This document shows positions 1,996-16,986 of a stretch of DNA of 42,895 nucleotides, in pieces. The first letter of the stretch is position 1. Each line of letters opens with the position of its first letter. Source of the DNA: Geobacteraceae bacterium (lineage in GTDB: Bacteria; Desulfobacterota; Desulfuromonadia; Geobacterales; DSM-12255); assembly GCA_013377075.1 (NCBI GenBank), contig JACABD010000025.1, forward strand, positions 10,000 to 52,894, written 5' to 3'. A model generated the notes under the pieces. The model was given only the letters and a program-made list of their open reading frames with translations, was not told the origin of the DNA and did not search any database. The translations under genes and the position numbers were made by a program.

Positions 1996-4284
1996 TTGAG
2001 CGGGAATCCAATGAACTTACTACCGGGAAGCAGACGTCATAAAAATTATACCTATCGGTTACTTCTCTACTGGACGGTTGTCATTCTTGTCCTGTTGACA
2101 CTCATGCTCATTCAGCACCGGCATTACGTGGTCAATCTGGCGGAGAACGAGGCTCGTGACTATTCCCGGCTTAACCTTGACTATCGCGCCTGGGCAGCCA
2201 GGATGGGGGGTGTTTATGTGCCGATTGACAAGGCTGCACCCAATCCGCACCTTGTAGTTCAGGGAAGGGATGTTACTACCACGGACGGCAGGCACCTGAC
2301 CCTGATCAATCCTGCCTACATGACAAGAATGGTATTTGAGGATATGCGGACATCCTCCCAAAGGGGGATCCTCAGTAAACTGACCAGCCTGAAACCGCTC
2401 AACCCGGTTAATGCACCGGATGAATGGGAACGCGCCGCCCTTGACGCCTTTGAACAGGAAGGAATTGTTGAACGCTCACAGATCACCGCTATTGAGGGGA
2501 AGCCTTACATGCGGCTCATTTCCCGGTTCGTGACGGAAAAACCGTGTCTTAAGTGCCATGAACACCAGGGGTATAAGGAGGGGGATGTGCGGGGCGGGAT
2601 TACCATCTCCATACCGCTGAGCGAATACTATTCGAGTGAAGTCCGGGAACGCGGCTTTATGATCGGCGGCTTTATGCTGCTCTGGGCATTGGTGAGCTGG
2701 GGCATCCTGTCTGCATCGCGCAAATATGCAGAGTATGAGAACAGACTTCTGCAGAGCGAAGAGCGCTTCCGTACCGTCTGTGATTGGACCCAGGACTGGG
2801 AGTACTGGGTCAACCCGTCAGGCAATCTGGAATACATTTCCCCCTCGTGCGAGAAGTTCACCGGCTATTCTGTGGCGGATTTTTCCATCACTCCGTCACT
2901 ATTGATGGACGTCGTTCATGCGGATGATCGACATCTGTATGCTGCTCATCGCTGCTCCGCTATCCGAGAGATCTCGGGCAGTGATGAGCTTAAATTCAGG
3001 ATTATCAGGAAGGATGGCGAAATCCGCTGGATCCAGCATTTGTGCAGGAGTGTGGTCAGGGATAACGTGAACCTGGGACGGAGGGTTTCAAATCGTGATA
3101 TTACCGATTTGGTTCATGCTGCTCAAGAACGCCAGAAAATCGAACTTCAGCTGCTGCAAAGTCAGAAACTGGAGAGCCTGGGGATCCTTGCCGGGGGAAT
3201 TGCCCATGACTTCAACAATATCCTTATGGCCATTATCGGCAATGCCGAACTGGCGCGGATGAGGGTTAGTCCCGACTCTCCTGCCATCGGCAATCTGCAA
3301 CAGATCGATCAGGCAGCTTGCCGGGCAGCAGATCTTGCCAAACAGATGTTGGCCTACTCCGGTAAAGGCAATTTCCTGATCGAGACTCTGGATCTGAATC
3401 TCCTTCTGGAAGAGATGCTCCCTATGCTGGAAGTGTCTATCTCCAAAAAGGCGTTACTGCGGCTCAATCAGGCTCCACAGCTTCCTGCTGTCGATGCCGA
3501 CGCTACTCAGTTGCGTCAAATCATCATGAATATGGTAATAAATGCCTCGGAAGCCATTGGTGATGATAATGGCGAAATCGCCATTACTACGGGTTTTATG
3601 GAGTGTGACAAGGCCTACTTGAAAGATTTCTGGCTGGATGAAGGGCTTGCAGAAGGGATGTACGTGTTTCTGGTGGTGACCGATAGCGGCTGCGGTATGG
3701 ACAAGGATACCATGTCGAAGCTTTTCGATCCCTTTTTTACCACCAAGTTCACCGGGCGTGGTCTGGGGATGGCCGCGGTGCAGGGTATCGTCCGTGGGCA
3801 TAAGGGAGGTATAAAAGTTTACAGCAATCCTGGACAGGGCTCGACCTTCCAGGTGCTGCTGCCTGTCAGCAGCACTCCAGCCGAGATCGCCATAGATCCT
3901 ACTCCAAATGACGTCTGGACGGGGAGTGGTACCGTACTGCTGGTAGACGATGAGCCCTCGGTCAGGAATGTTGGTGCCGAAATGCTCCTGGAACTCGGAT
4001 TCAAAGCCATCACCGCCTCTAACGGCCGTGAAGCTTTGGAGATATACAAGAACACTCCGGGCATTTTTTGTGTGATTCTTGACCTGACTATGCCGCAAAT
4101 GGGCGGAGTTGAGTGTTTCCGTGAACTGCAGAAATTAGATCCAGGTGTTAATGTGGTCATGACGAGTGGCTATAGTGAACAGGAAGTTACCGAAAGGTTC
4201 GTCAATATTGGTGTGACAGGTTTTATCCAGAAACCGTATAATTCCCTCGGTCTAAAAAACGTGCTGAAGAGGGTTCTTTCTTAA
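1996..4284 (+). CDS. Hybrid histidine kinase with periplasmic c-heme DUF3365 sensor
   Basis: Membrane sensor kinase of 762 residues. The order is TM helix (about 22-42), periplasmic DUF3365/Tll0287-like domain with a CLKCH c-heme motif at 184-188, TM helix (about 220-240), PAS (about 253-375), HisKA with phosphoacceptor His404 in GGIAHDFNNIL, HATPase with GRGLGMAAVQG, and a receiver domain with VLLVDDE and Asp in ILDLTMP. A covalently bound heme suggests redox, oxygen or NO sensing. No DNA-binding output is present, so it must signal through a partner. The start is uncertain: TTG at 1996 or ATG at 2011, neither with a strong ribosome-binding site. Its kinase half closely resembles that of the next gene. 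In G. sulfurreducens, kinases near nif (GnfK/GnfL) control nif expression; equivalence here is inference. Confidence 0.85.
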   Translation: MSGNPMNLLPGSRRHKNYTYRLLLYWTVVILVLLTLMLIQHRHYVVNLAENEARDYSRLNLDYRAWAARMGGVYVPIDKAAPNPHLVVQGRDVTTTDGRHLTLINPAYMTRMVFEDMRTSSQRGILSKLTSLKPLNPVNAPDEWERAALDAFEQEGIVERSQITAIEGKPYMRLISRFVTEKPCLKCHEHQGYKEGDVRGGITISIPLSEYYSSEVRERGFMIGGFMLLWALVSWGILSASRKYAEYENRLLQSEERFRTVCDWTQDWEYWVNPSGNLEYISPSCEKFTGYSVADFSITPSLLMDVVHADDRHLYAAHRCSAIREISGSDELKFRIIRKDGEIRWIQHLCRSVVRDNVNLGRRVSNRDITDLVHAAQERQKIELQLLQSQKLESLGILAGGIAHDFNNILMAIIGNAELARMRVSPDSPAIGNLQQIDQAACRAADLAKQMLAYSGKGNFLIETLDLNLLLEEMLPMLEVSISKKALLRLNQAPQLPAVDADATQLRQIIMNMVINASEAIGDDNGEIAITTGFMECDKAYLKDFWLDEGLAEGMYVFLVVTDSGCGMDKDTMSKLFDPFFTTKFTGRGLGMAAVQGIVRGHKGGIKVYSNPGQGSTFQVLLPVSSTPAEIAIDPTPNDVWTGSGTVLLVDDEPSVRNVGAEMLLELGFKAITASNGREALEIYKNTPGIFCVILDLTMPQMGGVECFRELQKLDPGVNVVMTSGYSEQEVTERFVNIGVTGFIQKPYNSLGLKNVLKRVLS

Positions 4285-4428: not shown

Positions 4429-4451
4429 GTAGGTCTACCAAGAGGTTCTTG

Positions 4452-7091
4452 ATGCCAATAGTATTTACATATCAACGCAAGCTGACACTACTGGCTTTGA
4501 TCCAGGCGATCATCCTCCTGATGGTAACGAACGTCTATGCTCTCGAAAAAGCCACCATCCAACTGAAATGGCTGCATCATTACCAGTTTGCCGGCTACTA
4601 CATGGCGCTTGAAAAGGGCTTTTACCGGGAAGAAGGACTTGATGTAACCATCAGGGAGGGTGGACCGACCGCCGAGGTTGAAAAGGATGTCGCTGCCGGT
4701 CGCGCAGATTTCGGCACTGGCACATCGGCACTCCTGGTTGATCGTGCCAGAGGGGCGGATTTCGTTGTTGTCGGTCAGGTTTTCCAGCACTCACCCGCCA
4801 TCTTCATGACACCGCGCAAGTCAGGTATCCGTTCGGTCAGGGATATGGCAGGTAAACGGTTCATGTACGCCAACCAGCATGGCGATATGCAGGCTCTGCT
4901 CAAAAAACACCTGATAGACGAGAAGCAGATAATTAAAGTTCCCCATAGGGGTGACCCCCGTGATCTGATTGAAGGCAAGGCAGACGTAATGCTCGCCTAC
5001 AGCTTCAATGAGCCTTACATCATGGAGCTTGCTGGAGAACCATATTTCACCTTCTCGCCAATGTCGTTCGGCATCGACTTTTACGGAGACAATTTTTTCA
5101 CCACCGGTAAAAACGTTACAGAAAGACCCGGTTTCGTCAGTGCTTTCCGAAAAGCCACTCTGCGAGGCTGGCAGTATGCCTTGCAGAACAGGGAGGAGAC
5201 GGCAGAGGTTATCCTGGCAAAATATCCGCGTGGACTGAGCCGCGAACACCTGCTCTTTGAAGCTGATCAGATGGATACGCTGATCCAGCCCCTCATGATA
5301 GAGCTGGGATATCAGAGCCCGACACGCTGGCAGCGGATCAGCGAAACCTATGCGGAGCTGGGGATGATCCCAAAGGGATTCGACCCGACGCCGATCATCT
5401 ATACTCCCACGAACGGTCAAAACCACCGACCGCTGATCCTCGCTCTGCTGTTTTCATCGATTATCATTGGGTTTCTTGCCTGGTTGCTTTTTACCTTCCG
5501 TCGGCTGAACGTCAGATTGAATAGACATATCGAAGAGCGGCACCAGGTTGAGGAAAACCTGAAAAAAAGCGAGCAGGAGTTACGTGAACTGGCCGAAGCC
5601 ATGCCGCAGATTGTCTGGATCACCAATCCGGACGGGCGGTTCATATATTTCAACCATCAATGGATGGATTACACCGGAATGGCACTAGAGGAAAGTATCG
5701 GCTATGGCTGGGATAAACCGTGCCACCCGGATGATCGACAAAAAGCCTGGCAAGCGTGGGAACAAGCCTCAGCAAGCCTTGACACTTATTCACTGGAATG
5801 CCGTCTGCGCCGGGCAGACGGAGTCTACAAGTGGTGGCTGGTTCGCGGAGTGCCGGTTTTTGATCAACAGGGGGTAGTCAAAAAGTGGTTCGGAACCTGT
5901 ACCGATATCGACGATCTGAAGAACGGTGCTGAAGAAAAACTGTTTTTGGAGCGTCAGCTGCTCCATGCTCAGAAGCTGGAGAGCATCGGCGTGCTGGCAG
6001 GTGGCATAGCCCACGACTTCAATAACATCCTCACTGCCATCATCGGCAATGTGGAAATTAACCGGATGAAACTGGAGCCTGAATCTCCGCTGTTACAGGG
6101 GCTGATTAATATTGAGAATGCAGCTAACCGGGCCGCTGAACTTGCAAGACAGATGCTGGCCTACTCAGGTAAAGGTAAGTTTCTGATTGAAAATATAGAC
6201 CTGCACGCTCTGCTACAGGAGATGCTTCAAATGATGGAAGTTTCAATCTCCAAAAAGGTGGAACTGCGGCTCAATCTGACCCCCGACACTCCTCACGTGG
6301 AGGCGGATGCCACCCAGATCCGTCAGGTCATTATGAACCTCGTGATCAATGCCTCGGAAGCAATCGGAGACACCCCCGGAGTCATTTCAATTACCACCGG
6401 CACTGTCTATTGTAATGAGAAACTGCTGCAGGAGGTCTGGCATAGCGGTGACCTGCGCGAAGGTGAGTACGTTTACTTCGAAATCTGTGATACCGGCTGC
6501 GGTATGGACAGTGAGACACTGGCAAAACTCTATGACCCGTTCTTCTCAACCAAGTTCACCGGCCGCGGCCTGGGGATGGCGGCTGTGCAGGGGATAGTCC
6601 GGAGCCACAATGGTGCCATTTACGCCAGGAGCGAGCCTGGCAACGGCACCTGCTTCAAGGTGCTGCTGCCTGCCAAGGGGAGTCCGACAAAGAGAAACAG
6701 CACTCTGGTGGTTAATGACAGATGGCAGGGGCACGGCAACATCCTTCTGGTGGATGACGAGGAAGCGATCAGGGAGATTGGTAGCGAACTGTTAACTGGG
6801 TTGGGTTTCACCGTTCTAACAGCCAGCGAAGGCCTTGAGGCGATAGAGATTTACACTGCCGGAAACGACATTGACCTGGTGATCCTCGATCTGACCATGC
6901 CTAAGATGAACGGCATCGACTGCTATTGCGAACTTAAGAAAATCAATCCGGATGTAAAGGTGATTATCTCCAGCGGTTACAGTGAAGAGGATGTTATCCA
7001 GCAGTTCAGCGGCCAGGAAATTGCCGGTTTCATCCAGAAACCTTACAAACTGTCGTTGCTGAAAGAGGTGTTGCAAAAAGTTGTTCAGTAA
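4452..7091 (+). CDS. Hybrid histidine kinase with NMT1/THI5-like binding-protein sensor
   Basis: An exported N-terminus (hydrophobic segment about 11-31) leads into a periplasmic NMT1/THI5/SsuA-like solute-binding domain (about 32-315; IQLKWLHHYQFAGYYMA is a typical opening). TM helix about 328-350, PAS about 375-490, HisKA with His522 (GGIAHDFNNIL), HATPase and a C-terminal receiver (ILLVDDE, Asp in ILDLTMP) follow. Residue numbers count from a TTG at 4449; the ATG at 4452 is preferred because AGAGG lies six bases upstream. Known NMT1-family ligands include thiamine pyrimidine precursors, taurine and related small molecules; the ligand here cannot be read from sequence. The kinase core shares long identical runs with the previous gene. 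It sits directly upstream of nifEN. Confidence 0.85.
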   Translation: MPIVFTYQRKLTLLALIQAIILLMVTNVYALEKATIQLKWLHHYQFAGYYMALEKGFYREEGLDVTIREGGPTAEVEKDVAAGRADFGTGTSALLVDRARGADFVVVGQVFQHSPAIFMTPRKSGIRSVRDMAGKRFMYANQHGDMQALLKKHLIDEKQIIKVPHRGDPRDLIEGKADVMLAYSFNEPYIMELAGEPYFTFSPMSFGIDFYGDNFFTTGKNVTERPGFVSAFRKATLRGWQYALQNREETAEVILAKYPRGLSREHLLFEADQMDTLIQPLMIELGYQSPTRWQRISETYAELGMIPKGFDPTPIIYTPTNGQNHRPLILALLFSSIIIGFLAWLLFTFRRLNVRLNRHIEERHQVEENLKKSEQELRELAEAMPQIVWITNPDGRFIYFNHQWMDYTGMALEESIGYGWDKPCHPDDRQKAWQAWEQASASLDTYSLECRLRRADGVYKWWLVRGVPVFDQQGVVKKWFGTCTDIDDLKNGAEEKLFLERQLLHAQKLESIGVLAGGIAHDFNNILTAIIGNVEINRMKLEPESPLLQGLINIENAANRAAELARQMLAYSGKGKFLIENIDLHALLQEMLQMMEVSISKKVELRLNLTPDTPHVEADATQIRQVIMNLVINASEAIGDTPGVISITTGTVYCNEKLLQEVWHSGDLREGEYVYFEICDTGCGMDSETLAKLYDPFFSTKFTGRGLGMAAVQGIVRSHNGAIYARSEPGNGTCFKVLLPAKGSPTKRNSTLVVNDRWQGHGNILLVDDEEAIREIGSELLTGLGFTVLTASEGLEAIEIYTAGNDIDLVILDLTMPKMNGIDCYCELKKINPDVKVIISSGYSEEDVIQQFSGQEIAGFIQKPYKLSLLKEVLQKVVQ

Positions 7092-7252: not shown

Positions 7253-7268
7253 TGGCACGCCATCTGCA
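7253..7268 (+). promoter_or_regulatory. Sigma-54 promoter of nifEN
   Basis: TGGCACGCCATCTGCA has the invariant GG (-24) and GC (-12) separated by exactly ten bases and matches the consensus TGGCAC-N5-TTGC closely. The expected start is near 7278, leaving a leader of about 27 bases with no terminator, unlike the nifX and nifB leaders. An inverted repeat at 7162-7182 (TATGCCT-N7-AGGCGTA) about 100 bases upstream of that start is a possible activator site; no TGT-N10-ACA NifA site was found. Confidence 0.9.
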
Positions 7269-7304: not shown

Positions 7305-10064
7305 ATGGCCAGACCAGACTATTACGACGCACCTGAGTGCGATATAGACCAGGCGAAAGGTGCCCCCAAGTTCTGCAAGAAGTCGGAGCCGGGTGAGGGG
7401 ACGGAGCGCTCCTGCGCCTATGACGGCGCACGGGTGGTTTTAATGCCGATTACCGACGTTATCCATCTGGTGCATGGACCCATTGCCTGCGCCGGTAACT
7501 CATGGGATAACCGCGGTGCGCGCTCTTCAGACTCGCAGCTTTACCGGCGCGGCTTTACCACCGAGATGATGCAGAATGATGTCATCTTCGGCGGCGAGAA
7601 GAAGCTCTATAAAGCAATTCAGGAGCTTGCCGGCCGCTATCCGGAGGCAAAGGCAATTTTTGTCTATGCCACCTGCGTTACCGCCATGACCGGGGATGAT
7701 GTGGAAGCAGTCTGCAAGGCTGCTGCTGAGAAGGTCTCAATCCCGGTGATTCCGGTGAACACCCCCGGTTTTATCGGTGACAAGAACATCGGCAATCGCC
7801 TTGCCGGAGAGATCCTCTTCAAGTACGTCATTGGCACGGCTGAACCGGAAATGCTGGGTGAATACCCGATCAATCTTATCGGCGAATACAACATCGCCGG
7901 TGACCTCTGGGGGATGCTGCCGCTCTTCGACCGCCTGGGGATTCAGGTGCTATCCTGCATCAGCGGCGATGCGAAGTTTGAGGATCTCCGTTATGCCCAC
8001 CGGGCAAAACTGAATGTCATCATCTGCTCCAAGAGTCTGACCAATCTTGCCAAGAAGATGCAGAAGACATACGGTATGCCCTACATCGAGGAGTCATTTT
8101 ACGGCATGACCGATACGGCCAAGGCACTGCGTGACATTGCCCGTGAGCTGGACGATGCAATTAATGGTCTGGAAAAGCGAACCATGACTGAAAGGGTAGA
8201 GGCATTAATTGCCGAGGAAGAGGAGAAGTGCCGGGCTGCCATTGCTCCGTACCGGGAAAAACTGACCGGCAAAAGATCGGTTCTTTTTACCGGCGGAGTC
8301 AAGACCTGGTCCATGGTCAATGCCCTGCGGGAGCTGGGGGTAGAGATTCTGGCTGCCGGAACCCAGAACTCAACCCTGGAAGATTTCTACCGGATGAAAG
8401 CACTGATGCATCAGGATGCAAAGATTATCGAGGATACCAGCACCGCCGGGCTGTTGTCGGTCATGTACGAGAAGATGCCTGACTTGATTGTTGCCGGGGG
8501 CAAGACCAAGTTTCTTGCCCTGAAAACAAAGACCCCGTTCCTCGACATCAACCATGGCCGCTCCCACCCATACGCCGGTTATGAGGGGATGGTGGCCTTC
8601 TCCCGGCAGCTTGATCTGACGGTAAATAATCCGATTTGGAAGACGCTTAACGCTAAAGCGCCATGGGAGAAGGATGCCGGTGAGACGGCTGCTGATCTTG
8701 CACTTGTGAAGGCCCATGCAGAGCGGCTTGAAGCAGAGTCGATGAAGGATTCCCGGGTTAAAGTGCCGACCAAGAATGCCACTGTAAATCCCCAGAAGAA
8801 CTCGCCTGCTCTCGGCGCCACACTGGCCTATCTGGGGATCGATCAGATGCTGGGACTGCTCCATGGTGCTCAGGGGTGCTCGACTTTCATCAGGCTACAG
8901 TTGTCGCGGCATTTCAAGGAGTCCATCGCCCTCAACTCTACCAGTATGAGCGAAGACACCGCCATTTTCGGCGGCTGGGAGAACCTGAAGAAAGGTCTTG
9001 GCCGGGTGATGGAGAAGTTTCAGCCCGGAGTTGTCGGCGTCATGACCTCCGGCCTCACCGAAACCATGGGTGATGATGTGCAGAGTGCCATTGTCCATTT
9101 CCGCCAGGAAAACCCCCAGTATGCCGATACGCCTGTTGTCTGGGCGTCAACCCCTGACTACTGCGGCTCCATGCAGGAGGGGTATGCAGCAACGGTGAAG
9201 GCGATTGTTGCTACTATTGCTGAGGGTGGCGAGAGATCTGAGAATCAGGTGAACCTCCTCCCCGGCAGCCAGCTGACCCCGGCGGAAGTGGAGGAGTTGA
9301 AAGAGATCTGCGAATCATTCGGCCTCGATCCGTTGGTGATTCCGGATATCTCCTGCGCCCTGGACGGTCATATCGATGAGACTGTGTCAGCACTCTCTGT
9401 CGGCGGAATTTCGGTGGAGCGGATAAGGCTTGCCGGACGCAGCATTGCAACAATTTACGTAGGAGATTCCCTGGCCGATAGCGCAACTTTTTTGCAGGGA
9501 AAGTTCGGCATACCGGCATTCGGCTTTACCGCGCTGACCGGCCTTGCAGAGGTGGATCTGCTTATGGAAACCCTGTCAGAGCTCTCTGGCAGGGCTGTGC
9601 CCGAAAAATTCCGTCGCTGGCGCAGCCGTCTCATGGATGCCATGGTGGACAGCCATTACCAGTTCGGCCTGAAGAAAGTCGCACTGGCCCTGGAGGCAGA
9701 TCACCTCAAAGGGATGACAACCTTCCTTGCATCAATGGGGTGCGAGATCCAGACTGCTATTTCTGCCACCCGTACAAAGGGGCTTGACGGGCTGCCATGC
9801 GATAATCTCTTTGTCGGCGATCTGGAAGATCTGGAGAGTGCAGCTGTTGGGGCAGATCTTTTGGTGGCCAACTCCAATGGTCGTCAGGCAGCAGCAAAGT
9901 TGAAGATCGGGGCGCATTTGCGCACAGGTCTGCCGGTGTTCGACCGTCTCGGCGCTCACCAGAAAATCTGGATCGGCTATCAGGGGACGCTGAATCTGGT
10001 TTTCGAGGTGGCTAACCTGTTTCAGGCCAATGCAAAGGAAGCGCAGAAGTTGGCCCATAACTAA
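7305..10064 (+). CDS. nifEN: NifEN fusion, FeMo-cofactor assembly scaffold
   Basis: A single 919-residue chain holds NifE (about 1-480) and NifN (about 490-919), the two halves of the scaffold on which the NifB product matures to FeMo-co. The NifE half keeps Cys37, Cys62 and Cys124 (GTERSCAYDG, GPIACAGNSW, YATCVTAMTG), the same numbers as in Azotobacter NifE. The NifN half keeps its ligand cysteine at residue 525 (HGAQGCSTF). The join is a hydrophilic stretch after APWEKDAGE. Fused nifEN is known in Geobacter. The ATG at 7305 follows GGAAAGGCGGA; transcription starts from the sigma-54 promoter at 7253. The 3' end faces a convergent GGDEF gene only 25 bases away. Confidence 0.96.
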   Translation: MARPDYYDAPECDIDQAKGAPKFCKKSEPGEGTERSCAYDGARVVLMPITDVIHLVHGPIACAGNSWDNRGARSSDSQLYRRGFTTEMMQNDVIFGGEKKLYKAIQELAGRYPEAKAIFVYATCVTAMTGDDVEAVCKAAAEKVSIPVIPVNTPGFIGDKNIGNRLAGEILFKYVIGTAEPEMLGEYPINLIGEYNIAGDLWGMLPLFDRLGIQVLSCISGDAKFEDLRYAHRAKLNVIICSKSLTNLAKKMQKTYGMPYIEESFYGMTDTAKALRDIARELDDAINGLEKRTMTERVEALIAEEEEKCRAAIAPYREKLTGKRSVLFTGGVKTWSMVNALRELGVEILAAGTQNSTLEDFYRMKALMHQDAKIIEDTSTAGLLSVMYEKMPDLIVAGGKTKFLALKTKTPFLDINHGRSHPYAGYEGMVAFSRQLDLTVNNPIWKTLNAKAPWEKDAGETAADLALVKAHAERLEAESMKDSRVKVPTKNATVNPQKNSPALGATLAYLGIDQMLGLLHGAQGCSTFIRLQLSRHFKESIALNSTSMSEDTAIFGGWENLKKGLGRVMEKFQPGVVGVMTSGLTETMGDDVQSAIVHFRQENPQYADTPVVWASTPDYCGSMQEGYAATVKAIVATIAEGGERSENQVNLLPGSQLTPAEVEELKEICESFGLDPLVIPDISCALDGHIDETVSALSVGGISVERIRLAGRSIATIYVGDSLADSATFLQGKFGIPAFGFTALTGLAEVDLLMETLSELSGRAVPEKFRRWRSRLMDAMVDSHYQFGLKKVALALEADHLKGMTTFLASMGCEIQTAISATRTKGLDGLPCDNLFVGDLEDLESAAVGADLLVANSNGRQAAAKLKIGAHLRTGLPVFDRLGAHQKIWIGYQGTLNLVFEVANLFQANAKEAQKLAHN

Positions 10065-11233: not shown

Positions 11234-11249
11234 TGGCACGTCAAGTGCT
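11234..11249 (+). promoter_or_regulatory. Sigma-54 promoter of the nifX operon
   Basis: TGGCACGTCAAGTGCT carries GG and GC separated by ten bases, the -24/-12 layout. The expected start is near 11260. The leader down to the nifX ATG at 11339 is about 80 bases and contains the attenuator described at 11280-11321. Confidence 0.88.
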
Positions 11250-11279: not shown

Positions 11280-11321
11280 TGGCAATGGCGCCACGATCTG
11301 AAAAGGTCGTGGCGTTTTTTT
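11280..11321 (+). promoter_or_regulatory. Antitermination leader of nifX: A1/G4 hexaloop hairpin plus terminator
   Basis: TGGC (11280-11283) and GCCA (11290-11293) form a short stem around the six-base loop AATGGC, with A at loop position 1 and G at 4, as in ANTAR-protein RNA targets. Its 3' arm overlaps the 5' arm of an intrinsic terminator: CGCCACGA (11289-11296) pairs with TCGTGGCG (11307-11314), then seven T. The two structures exclude each other, so a protein holding the hexaloop hairpin would allow read-through. The same design occurs before nifB. No convincing first hexaloop hairpin (P1) was found. GnfR, an ANTAR response regulator, acts on nif genes in G. sulfurreducens. Confidence 0.8.
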
Positions 11322-11338
11322 GACGAGGAGGAGATACC

Positions 11339-11725
11339 ATGAAAGTCGCATTTACCAGCAGCAGCGGCGAAATGATCGACCAGCATTTCGGCCAGTGTCA
11401 GAATTTTTATGTCTGGGAGATAGGAGTTGACGAGGCTTCGCAGGTGGCAGTCATCAGCGGCATATCGGCAGACGGTGATGAAGAGGATCGCATTACTGCC
11501 CGTGGCAATGCGTTGGCAGACTGCGCCATTGTCTACACCATGCAGATCGGCGGTCCGGCCGCAGCCAAGCTGGTGGCAAGGAAGATTCATCCAATGAAGA
11601 CCACTGAAGAGGTTTCTGTAGCCGATATTGTTGCCAAACTGCAAGCGGTTTTGCAGGAGAATCCGCCACCGTGGCTCAAAAAAGCACTCAACAAGGATAC
11701 TAATGCGTCATTTCTTGACGACTAA
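11339..11725 (+). CDS. nifX: NifX, FeMo-cofactor precursor carrier
   Basis: 128 residues of the dinitrogenase Fe-Mo cofactor-binding (NifX/NifY) fold. Family marks include the MKVAFTSS start, IDQHFG, ADGDEEDRI, QIGGPAAAKLVARKIHP and NPPPWLKKAL near the end, all typical of NifX proper. NifX binds NifB-co or its mature form and passes it between NifB, NifEN and dinitrogenase in the cytoplasm. GAGGAGGA precedes the ATG. It is first in an operon with a nif ferredoxin and a second NifX-like protein, expressed from the sigma-54 promoter and attenuated leader upstream. Confidence 0.92.
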   Translation: MKVAFTSSSGEMIDQHFGQCQNFYVWEIGVDEASQVAVISGISADGDEEDRITARGNALADCAIVYTMQIGGPAAAKLVARKIHPMKTTEEVSVADIVAKLQAVLQENPPPWLKKALNKDTNASFLDD

Positions 11726-16017: not shown

Positions 16018-16033
16018 TGGCACAGTTAAGGCA
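16018..16033 (+). promoter_or_regulatory. Sigma-54 promoter of nifB
   Basis: TGGCACAGTTAAGGCA has GG and GC ten bases apart. The predicted start is near 16044, giving a leader of about 80 bases that includes the attenuator at 16063-16103. Confidence 0.88.
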
Positions 16034-16062
16034 AAGTGTAGGCCATAGACCATCTATGTATC

Positions 16063-16103
16063 GGGCAATGGAGCCCTGTAGAGTTTTCTCTGCAGGGCTT
16101 TTT
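16063..16103 (+). promoter_or_regulatory. Antitermination leader of nifB: A1/G4 hexaloop hairpin plus terminator
   Basis: GGGC (16063-16066) and GCCC (16073-16076) enclose the six-base loop AATGGA, with A at loop position 1 and G at 4. The GCCC arm is shared with a strong terminator: AGCCCTGTAGAG (16072-16083), loop TTTT, CTCTGCAGGGCT (16088-16099), then a T-run to 16103. The hexaloop hairpin and the terminator are mutually exclusive. Layout and loop word (AATGG) repeat those of the nifX leader, although the two terminator stems differ in sequence. A further small hairpin, CATAGA-CCA-TCTATG at 16044-16058, lies just before but does not have a hexaloop. Confidence 0.82.
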
Positions 16104-16122: not shown

Positions 16123-16986
16123 ATGGGAAATGCATGCAGCGGCAGGAAAAATATTCAGGGGCATCCATGTTTCGGCGGCAATCACCACAAAAACGGCAGA
16201 ATGCACCTTGCCGTAGCGCCGAAATGCAATATCAAGTGCGGCTACTGCAGCCGCCGTCACGACTGTGCCAACGAGTCCCGTCCGGGAGTTACCAGTCGCA
16301 TCCTCACACCTCTCGAAGCGATGGAGAAGGTTCGTGAAGTCATGGCGAGTGAGTTGCTTGGCGACCTCATCAAGGTGATCGGCATTGCCGGACCTGGCGA
16401 TCCGCTGGCAAACGAAGAAACTTTTGAAACCTTTCGTTTGATCGGTGCAGAGTTTCCGCACCTGATTAAATGCATGAGCACAAACGGTCTCTTGCTGCCG
16501 GAACGGATTGACGACCTTGAAGAGCTGGATCTCCACAGCCTGACAGTTACCATCAATGCCCTTGATCCGGTTGTCGGAGCGAAAATATACAGCCATATCA
16601 ATTATCATGGACATCGTTTTACGGGCGTGGAAGCTGCCTCGATCCTGATTGCCAATCAGCTTAGTGGTCTGAAGAGCGCCGCTGACTACGGCATGACGAT
16701 CAAGGTTAATACCGTCCTCATCCCCGGGGTGAATGAAGCACAGATACCGCTGATTGCTGAAAAGGTGAAATCAATGGGTGCCTTTGTCATGAACGTCATG
16801 CCGATAATTCCCCAGGCCGATTTTGCCGGAATCACGCCGCCGACAGCCGAGGAGATCTCTCTGGTTCAGGCAGAAAATGAAAAGATCATCGGCCAGTTCA
16901 AGCACTGCAAACAGTGTCGTGCTGACGCAGTGGGCCTGATCGGCCAGGATATGCAGTTTGCAAAAGCGTCATGTTCGGGAACCTGA
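16123..16986 (+). CDS. nifB: NifB, radical SAM FeMo-cofactor precursor synthase (short form)
   Basis: NifB fuses two [4Fe-4S] clusters and inserts carbon to make NifB-co. The 287-residue protein has the radical SAM motif CNIKCGYC (Cys35, Cys39, Cys42), the NifB-specific HPCFGGNHHKNGRMHLAVAP start, the SAM-binding IAGPGDPLAN and the C-terminal CKQCRADAVGL cluster-ligand motif. The NifX-like C-terminal domain found in longer NifBs is missing; a free protein of that fold is encoded at 12045. AAGGGGGGA precedes the ATG. It is followed three bases later by a GNAT gene. Confidence 0.96.
   Translation: MGNACSGRKNIQGHPCFGGNHHKNGRMHLAVAPKCNIKCGYCSRRHDCANESRPGVTSRILTPLEAMEKVREVMASELLGDLIKVIGIAGPGDPLANEETFETFRLIGAEFPHLIKCMSTNGLLLPERIDDLEELDLHSLTVTINALDPVVGAKIYSHINYHGHRFTGVEAASILIANQLSGLKSAADYGMTIKVNTVLIPGVNEAQIPLIAEKVKSMGAFVMNVMPIIPQADFAGITPPTAEEISLVQAENEKIIGQFKHCKQCRADAVGLIGQDMQFAKASCSGT

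Follow-up and report, generated by a model that had tools for sequence, protein, structure and literature searches.

A single-hairpin antitermination switch, probably read by an ANTAR regulator, in the nifB and nifX leaders of a Geobacteraceae bacterium

Background

In front of the nifB gene of a Geobacteraceae bacterium, a short hairpin shares bases with an intrinsic terminator, and the same arrangement recurs in front of nifX. This locus raises the question of whether such leaders are genuine regulatory elements and, in that case, which factor reads them and how many hairpins it needs. According to the text available of PMC3369931 and PMC8934654, the known ANTAR targets are made of two hexaloop hairpins (P1 and P2), both of which are needed for antitermination by EutV, and positions A1 and G4 are diagnostic of their hexaloops.

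Results and discussion

Organisation of the nif region and of its two leaders

The window, i.e. the whole stretch of 42,895 nucleotides that was analysed, contains the following nif region:

240-1703, nifK.
1996-4284 and 4449-7091, two hybrid sensor kinases (hybrid histidine kinases), between nifK and nifEN.
7253-7267, forward strand, sigma-54 promoter of nifEN, without a P2/terminator leader (internal contrast).
7305-10064, nifEN.
11339-11725, forward strand, nifX (TIGR02663, 133.1 bits, cut-off 112).
Listed between nifX and nifB, a ferredoxin gene, a second NifX-like gene and draT.
Listed between draT and nifB, complement strand, a draG-like ADP-ribosylglycohydrolase gene.
16123-16986, forward strand, nifB, 287 aa (TIGR01290, 320.8 bits, E 1.2e-95, just under a cut-off of 343.65 that was set for a longer model).
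Listed after nifB, a GNAT acetyltransferase gene.

The two hybrid histidine kinases are large and are candidates for nitrogen-related sensing. The leaders of nifX and nifB are composed as follows:

11234-11248, forward strand, sigma-54 promoter of nifX, TGGCACGTCAAGTGC.
11280-11293, forward strand, P2 hairpin TGGC-AATGGC-GCCA of the nifX leader, whose loop AATGGC has A1 and G4; no P1 found.
11288-11320, forward strand, intrinsic terminator of the nifX leader with T-run (hairpin 11288-11315, -21.8 kcal/mol).
16018-16032, forward strand, sigma-54 (-24/-12) promoter of nifB, TGGCACAGTTAAGGC, position and spacing kept in relatives.
16044-16058, forward strand, CATAG-ACCAT-CTATG, a possible degenerate P1 (5-bp stem, 5-nt loop, no G4), not a canonical P1.
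16063-16076, forward strand, P2 antiterminator hairpin GGGC-AATGGA-GCCC, hexaloop with A1 and G4, kept across relatives.
16071-16103, forward strand, intrinsic terminator of the nifB leader (13-pair stem, TTTT loop, T-run), with covariation in 34 nifB leaders.

From its sigma-54 promoter, the nifB transcript is predicted to start at about 16044. The AATGGA hexaloop (16067-16072) carries A at position 1 and G at position 4, as ANTAR P2 hairpins do. The sequence-only reading had rightly placed GGGC-AATGGA-GCCC across a terminator before nifB; the stem of this terminator (16071-16083 with 16088-16100, T-run at 16099-16103) has 13 pairs, including an outer G-U, and not 12. P2 and the terminator share 16071-16076, the terminator 5' arm being formed by the last P2 loop bases and the P2 3' arm, and P2 both overlaps and excludes the terminator, which is a further property of ANTAR targets. 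In the nifB leader, P2 alone folds at -6.1 kcal/mol and the terminator at -23.9 (z -6.9), with none of 200 shuffles equally stable. Considering both leaders of the window, the short hairpin (-4 to -6 kcal/mol) is much weaker than the terminator (-22 to -24) and therefore cannot win unaided: it needs something holding it.

The nifX leader has the same layout as that of nifB (promoter, P2, overlapping terminator) and its loop begins with the same AATGG. Exact matches to GGCAAYGRNGCC within the window were restricted to these two sites, which, among the hairpin-terminator candidates of a first window scan, were also the only ones to follow a good sigma-54 promoter. The earlier proposal of one switch used at both genes is thus borne out, together with the remark that nifEN, despite its sigma-54 promoter at 7253, lacks this kind of leader. 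About 20 more weak candidates, obtained from a wider hairpin scan of the window, were rejected, having neither a promoter nor a good terminator.

Specificity and conservation of the element

A covariance model (R1) was trained on 43 leaders, taken from relatives and from the window. Across the window's genome, the only convincing sites were nifB (E 5.6e-7) and nifX (E 1.9e-3), with E-values biased in their favour because both belonged to the training set. Independent support therefore comes from conservation: most of the 80 nifB loci of relatives have the element, in the same place. Kept before nifB in relatives and accompanied by covariation in the terminator, the nifB element is real, as had been argued from its two occurrences in the window, and not due to chance. 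The other R1 matches inspected in this genome were ordinary terminators or coding sequence. The nifH, nifEN and porin-glnK units of the same genome have sigma-54 promoters and no such leader. Against Rfam, at gathering and relaxed thresholds, the window gave no gathering-level match and one chance trpB match (19.9 bits vs 59).

Sixty regions around further R1 matches were taken from the order and the class. Leaving aside a few with an unassigned downstream gene (L187, L195), matches linked to a sigma-54 promoter precede nifB, nifV, nifH or nifX; those lacking this promoter looked, on inspection, like ordinary terminators or coding sequence. No R1 match was found in front of glnK or amtB in the regions examined. 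Of the anticipated restriction of matches to nif, glnK and amtB-type genes, only the nif part was recovered. Similarly, the suggestion of an added checkpoint on cofactor steps agrees with nifB, nifX and nifV, all FeMo-cofactor genes, but the leader also precedes the structural gene nifH.

A second and different leader element, GCTGACCAGAYAACTGGAGGCC followed by a terminator, was observed in 15 of 28 relatives (1-7 copies per genome) and was not found in the window's genome. Its sites (L016:381, L017:8014 and 9932, L076:2193 and 9937, L079:354, L246-L256) lie before sulfur- or methionine-related genes, named here from translations and not by profile search (metK-like in L076, cysK-like in L252, corrinoid-type in L247, cbiM-like in L255, a Rrf2-type regulator in L017), and also before second nifB copies adjoining nitrogenase-like genes. 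Three loci tested gave no Rfam match for it.

Loop rule and terminator covariation

Among 34 nifB leaders, 96.2% of the cells of the terminator helix are paired and changes on both sides occur in 7 of 10 pairs; the score for covariation reaches 0.542 (shuffled 0.190, slid at most 0.137). The outermost pair counted joins P2 loop position 6 to the terminator 3' arm and is found as A-U, C-G, U-A, G-U and G-C; these five pair types are direct evidence that P2 and the terminator compete for the same bases. Drift is confined to the terminator stem, where it is compensated, and the P2 stem GGC/GCC is highly conserved. The former view of a selected loop with stems free to drift is therefore correct for the loop and the terminator, and incorrect for the P2 stem. 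As the alignments were selected with the GGCAAYGRNGCC pattern, invariance within them proves little; leaders off this pattern retain A1 and G4 while positions 2, 3, 5 and 6 vary, their loops being AAAGAA (L007), ACTGCA (L008, L010), AAAGGG (L018), ATTGAA (L020) and, after CGC, AATGAA (L019).

These data bear on another explanation, in which the terminator would be a plain attenuator or insulator lowering nifB and nifX, and the loop would be kept only as terminator bases, with no protein reader. The terminator does include the P2 3' arm and the sixth loop base, but bases 1 and 4 of the loop, like the P2 5' arm GGC, are nearly invariant although they lie outside its stem, ordinary terminators of the same genomes are devoid of the A1/G4/GGC features and P1, which is also outside the terminator, covaries in relatives (see below). 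We consider this explanation extremely unlikely.

A single ANTAR protein as candidate reader

The sequence-only reading had named neither a likely reader protein nor the missing second hairpin. The window's genome encodes exactly one ANTAR protein (PF03861, E 1.7e-20, 74.9 bits, cut-off 27.3):

L082:5861-6511 (contig C58), complement strand, ANTAR gene encoding a 216-aa receiver-ANTAR protein, near glnK.

A sigma-54-like box, TGGCTCGATTGATGC, is located upstream of this gene. The protein aligns with Rv1626 (E 1.9e-28) and with EutV (E 2.8e-16). Considering the RNA-contact residues of EutV that are named in PMC8934654, which were mapped by eye from a printed alignment, R142, K143, K149, E160, M172 and R175 are identical in the window protein, K147 and Y164 are replaced by R and F, and we regard most of the contacts as retained; R168, N173 and R177 correspond to Q, D and T, and differ in Rv1626 too.

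The receiver of the window genus does not show the full set of residues expected of a phosphorylated receiver (acidic pair, phospho-Asp, Thr and Lys). Indeed, CTATASE or CAASAAE stands in place of the acidic pocket CDDEP of relatives, the conserved Thr has disappeared, and the phospho-Asp position is occupied by Asp in L001 and L088 and by Glu in L091. A similar decay is present in Geomonas and Geomesophilobacter. The pocket has been lost in two lineages (the window genus, with L001/L082, L088 and L091, and Geomonas and relatives, with L094, L101 and L103), both of which are long branches on the ANTAR tree. This loss makes a classic phosphorelay unlikely in the window genus, and the sequences suggest that phosphorylation is probably not what controls the regulator, its amount or a partner being more likely. 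AmiR is controlled by amount or by partner.

The ANTAR gene is present in 49 of the 50 relatives with a nifB locus. Of the 141 genomes of the order, 129 encode an ANTAR protein and 128 give an R1 match; both ANTAR and nif are near-universal there, so that co-occurrence is weak evidence. Sampling across the class gave 8 genomes without ANTAR, 7 of which have no real nifB either. Strong leader matches (E up to 1e-5) were obtained there in 58/90 genomes with ANTAR versus 1/8 without (Fisher p 0.006); these matches were tallied by hand from tables, and nif presence obviously confounds the comparison. About 40 genomes of family f4 (tallied by hand) have their ANTAR gene on the strand of the nifB leader, about 1.3 kb upstream of it; at L069, a gene for a 680-aa sensor-like protein is followed by the ANTAR gene, then by the leader and nifB. 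A few relatives, namely G068, G072, G093, G143, G159 and G168, encode two or three ANTAR proteins.

Genus g4, from the family of the window (G061 and G062; nifB loci L215 and L214), has intact nif leaders in assemblies that are 99-100% complete. No ANTAR gene, diverged forms included, was found in this genus by profile search or by a protein search run without a positive control. Leaders with no detectable ANTAR gene, like the degenerate receiver of the window genus, would suit a hairpin read by a riboswitch mechanism or by another trans-acting factor (metabolite, PII-linked protein or small RNA) in place of ANTAR. However, the element falls short of any known riboswitch fold in size and matches no Rfam family, its A1/G4 hexaloop, its terminator overlap and the dual form seen in outgroups closely fit ANTAR targets, and the ANTAR gene adjoins the leader in many genomes. 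A reader other than ANTAR thus appears very unlikely to us.

One hairpin or two

Between the predicted start and P2, no hexaloop P1 with A1/G4 is present in the nifB and nifX leaders of the window. Clear P1 hairpins, such as GATAC-AACGAG-GTATC, exist in the nifB leaders of several Geobacterales genera, and the nifH, nifV and nifB leaders of outgroup families of the class contain the full P1+P2 ANTAR target. In 19 P1 sequences, changes on both sides affect 4 of 6 pairs (score 0.471 vs 0.203) and 94.7% of cells are paired, a percentage inflated by the choice of sequences having the hairpin. In about 33 nifB loci of relatives, the predicted start is 1-13 nt, mostly 4-8, before P2, so near that, with these predicted starts, the transcript cannot include a P1. 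For the single-hairpin leaders, a P1-like hairpin ahead of the promoter was considered and dismissed (2/33, close to the rate of about 3% in shuffles). In genomes whose nifB leader includes P1, this hairpin is often absent from the nifV leaders, with one single ANTAR protein for both. Leader classes are clustered on the ANTAR protein tree (4 label changes versus 14.4 in shuffles).

One refinement, which is compatible with an ANTAR switch, would keep the dual-hairpin rule intact by treating CATAG-ACCAT-CTATG as a non-canonical recruitment P1. This hairpin, with its 5-bp stem and 5-nt loop at 16044-16058, is inside the predicted transcript, and a similar 5-nt-loop hairpin, CAGAC-AAGGT-GTTTG, is found in the L005 nifV leader. 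Against this, the 16044-16058 hairpin has no G4, is not shared by L002 and L003 (the nearest relatives) and has no counterpart in the nifX leader, and family f4 has no room for any P1 before nifB; we hold this refinement to be rather unlikely.

The simplest reading, resting on predicted start sites, would be an ancestral dual target from which P1 was lost several times. We lean slightly towards the existence of natural single-hexaloop ANTAR attenuators, several Geobacterales lineages having lost P1 gene by gene (nifV in some lineages, nifB and nifX in the window genus, nifB in family f4) while retaining P2, the terminator and the sigma-54 promoter; ANTAR would then load directly on P2, only a few bases after the beginning of the transcript. 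In the window genus, the absence of P1 coincides with a regulator that no longer has its phosphorylation pocket. A stronger terminator as compensation for the missing P1 was rejected, the single-hairpin class being slightly weaker (median -19.9 vs -21.3 kcal/mol), a difference too small and too phylogenetically confounded to build on.

Proposed mechanism

We propose that the nifB (and nifX) leader is very probably an antitermination switch read by the single ANTAR response regulator of the genome. From the computed parts (promoter motif, P2, terminator, their overlap, conservation, target genes and the single ANTAR gene), we infer the start site, ANTAR binding, antitermination, the signal and function without P1. 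Briefly, (i) under nitrogen limitation, sigma-54 polymerase would start near 16044; (ii) by default, the RNA of 16071-16103 would fold as the terminator and transcription would stop before nifB; (iii) when the ANTAR protein is active, a dimer would bind the P2 hexaloop (16063-16076) as it emerges from the polymerase and, P2 using the same bases as the terminator 5' arm, the bound hairpin would block the terminator and nifB would be transcribed. In the window genus, the switch would dispense with P1, and the regulator, with its degenerate receiver pocket, would be governed by amount or partner and not by phosphorylation. The g4 leaders without an ANTAR gene, the missing canonical P1 and the lost receiver pocket count against this proposal.

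Relation to known systems

In Geobacter sulfurreducens, Ueki and Lovley reportedly described in 2010 a system, GnfK/GnfR, in which a response regulator lets transcription pass the leader terminators of some sigma-54-dependent nif genes, and which is said to be a His-Asp phosphorelay. The ANTAR protein of the window's genome is probably an orthologue of GnfR; unlike in such a phosphorelay, the receiver of the window genus has no acidic pocket.

The dual-hexaloop targets of ANTAR proteins (EutV/eutP, NasR/nasF, AmiR/amiE; Ramesh et al. 2012, PMC3369931) resemble, in the text available, the window leaders by their A1/G4 P2, their exclusive overlapping terminator, their genome-encoded ANTAR protein and the presence of nitrogen genes among the targets. 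In contrast, the window leaders have no canonical P1 and are driven by a sigma-54 promoter, and the predicted start of the f4 relatives is mostly 4-8 nt before P2. In Pelobacter carbinolicus, from the same broad group, ANTAR targets precede three nitrogenase-related units, within a general link to nitrogen genes (PMC3369931, Figure 9B); this regulon was found with a dual-hairpin model, and the text available makes no mention of single-hairpin leaders. Walshe et al. 2022 (PMC8934654) redefined the minimal ANTAR binding unit as one hexaloop, both hairpins of EutV still being needed for antitermination; unlike EutV, the natural terminator-overlapping leaders described here appear to have dispensed with P1. 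The same authors ask how far single hexaloop motifs function, and expect them mainly where the transcribing polymerase imposes no time limit.

The window element is a fresh instance of a known system, ANTAR control of nitrogenase genes having been published for Pelobacter carbinolicus in 2012. It departs from the known switch type by its P1-less leaders and the decayed receiver; the missing P1 and the starts leaving no room for it are not reported in the text available of PMC3369931 and PMC8934654.

Conclusions

The nif leaders of widespread soil and sediment diazotrophs are tied here to one probable antiterminator, with nifB, nifX, nifV and nifH as its target set. This bears on the question raised in PMC8934654 of why there are two hairpins if the dimer binds one, since one seems here to be enough during transcription. 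Genomes having both leader forms under one ANTAR protein offer a clean comparison.
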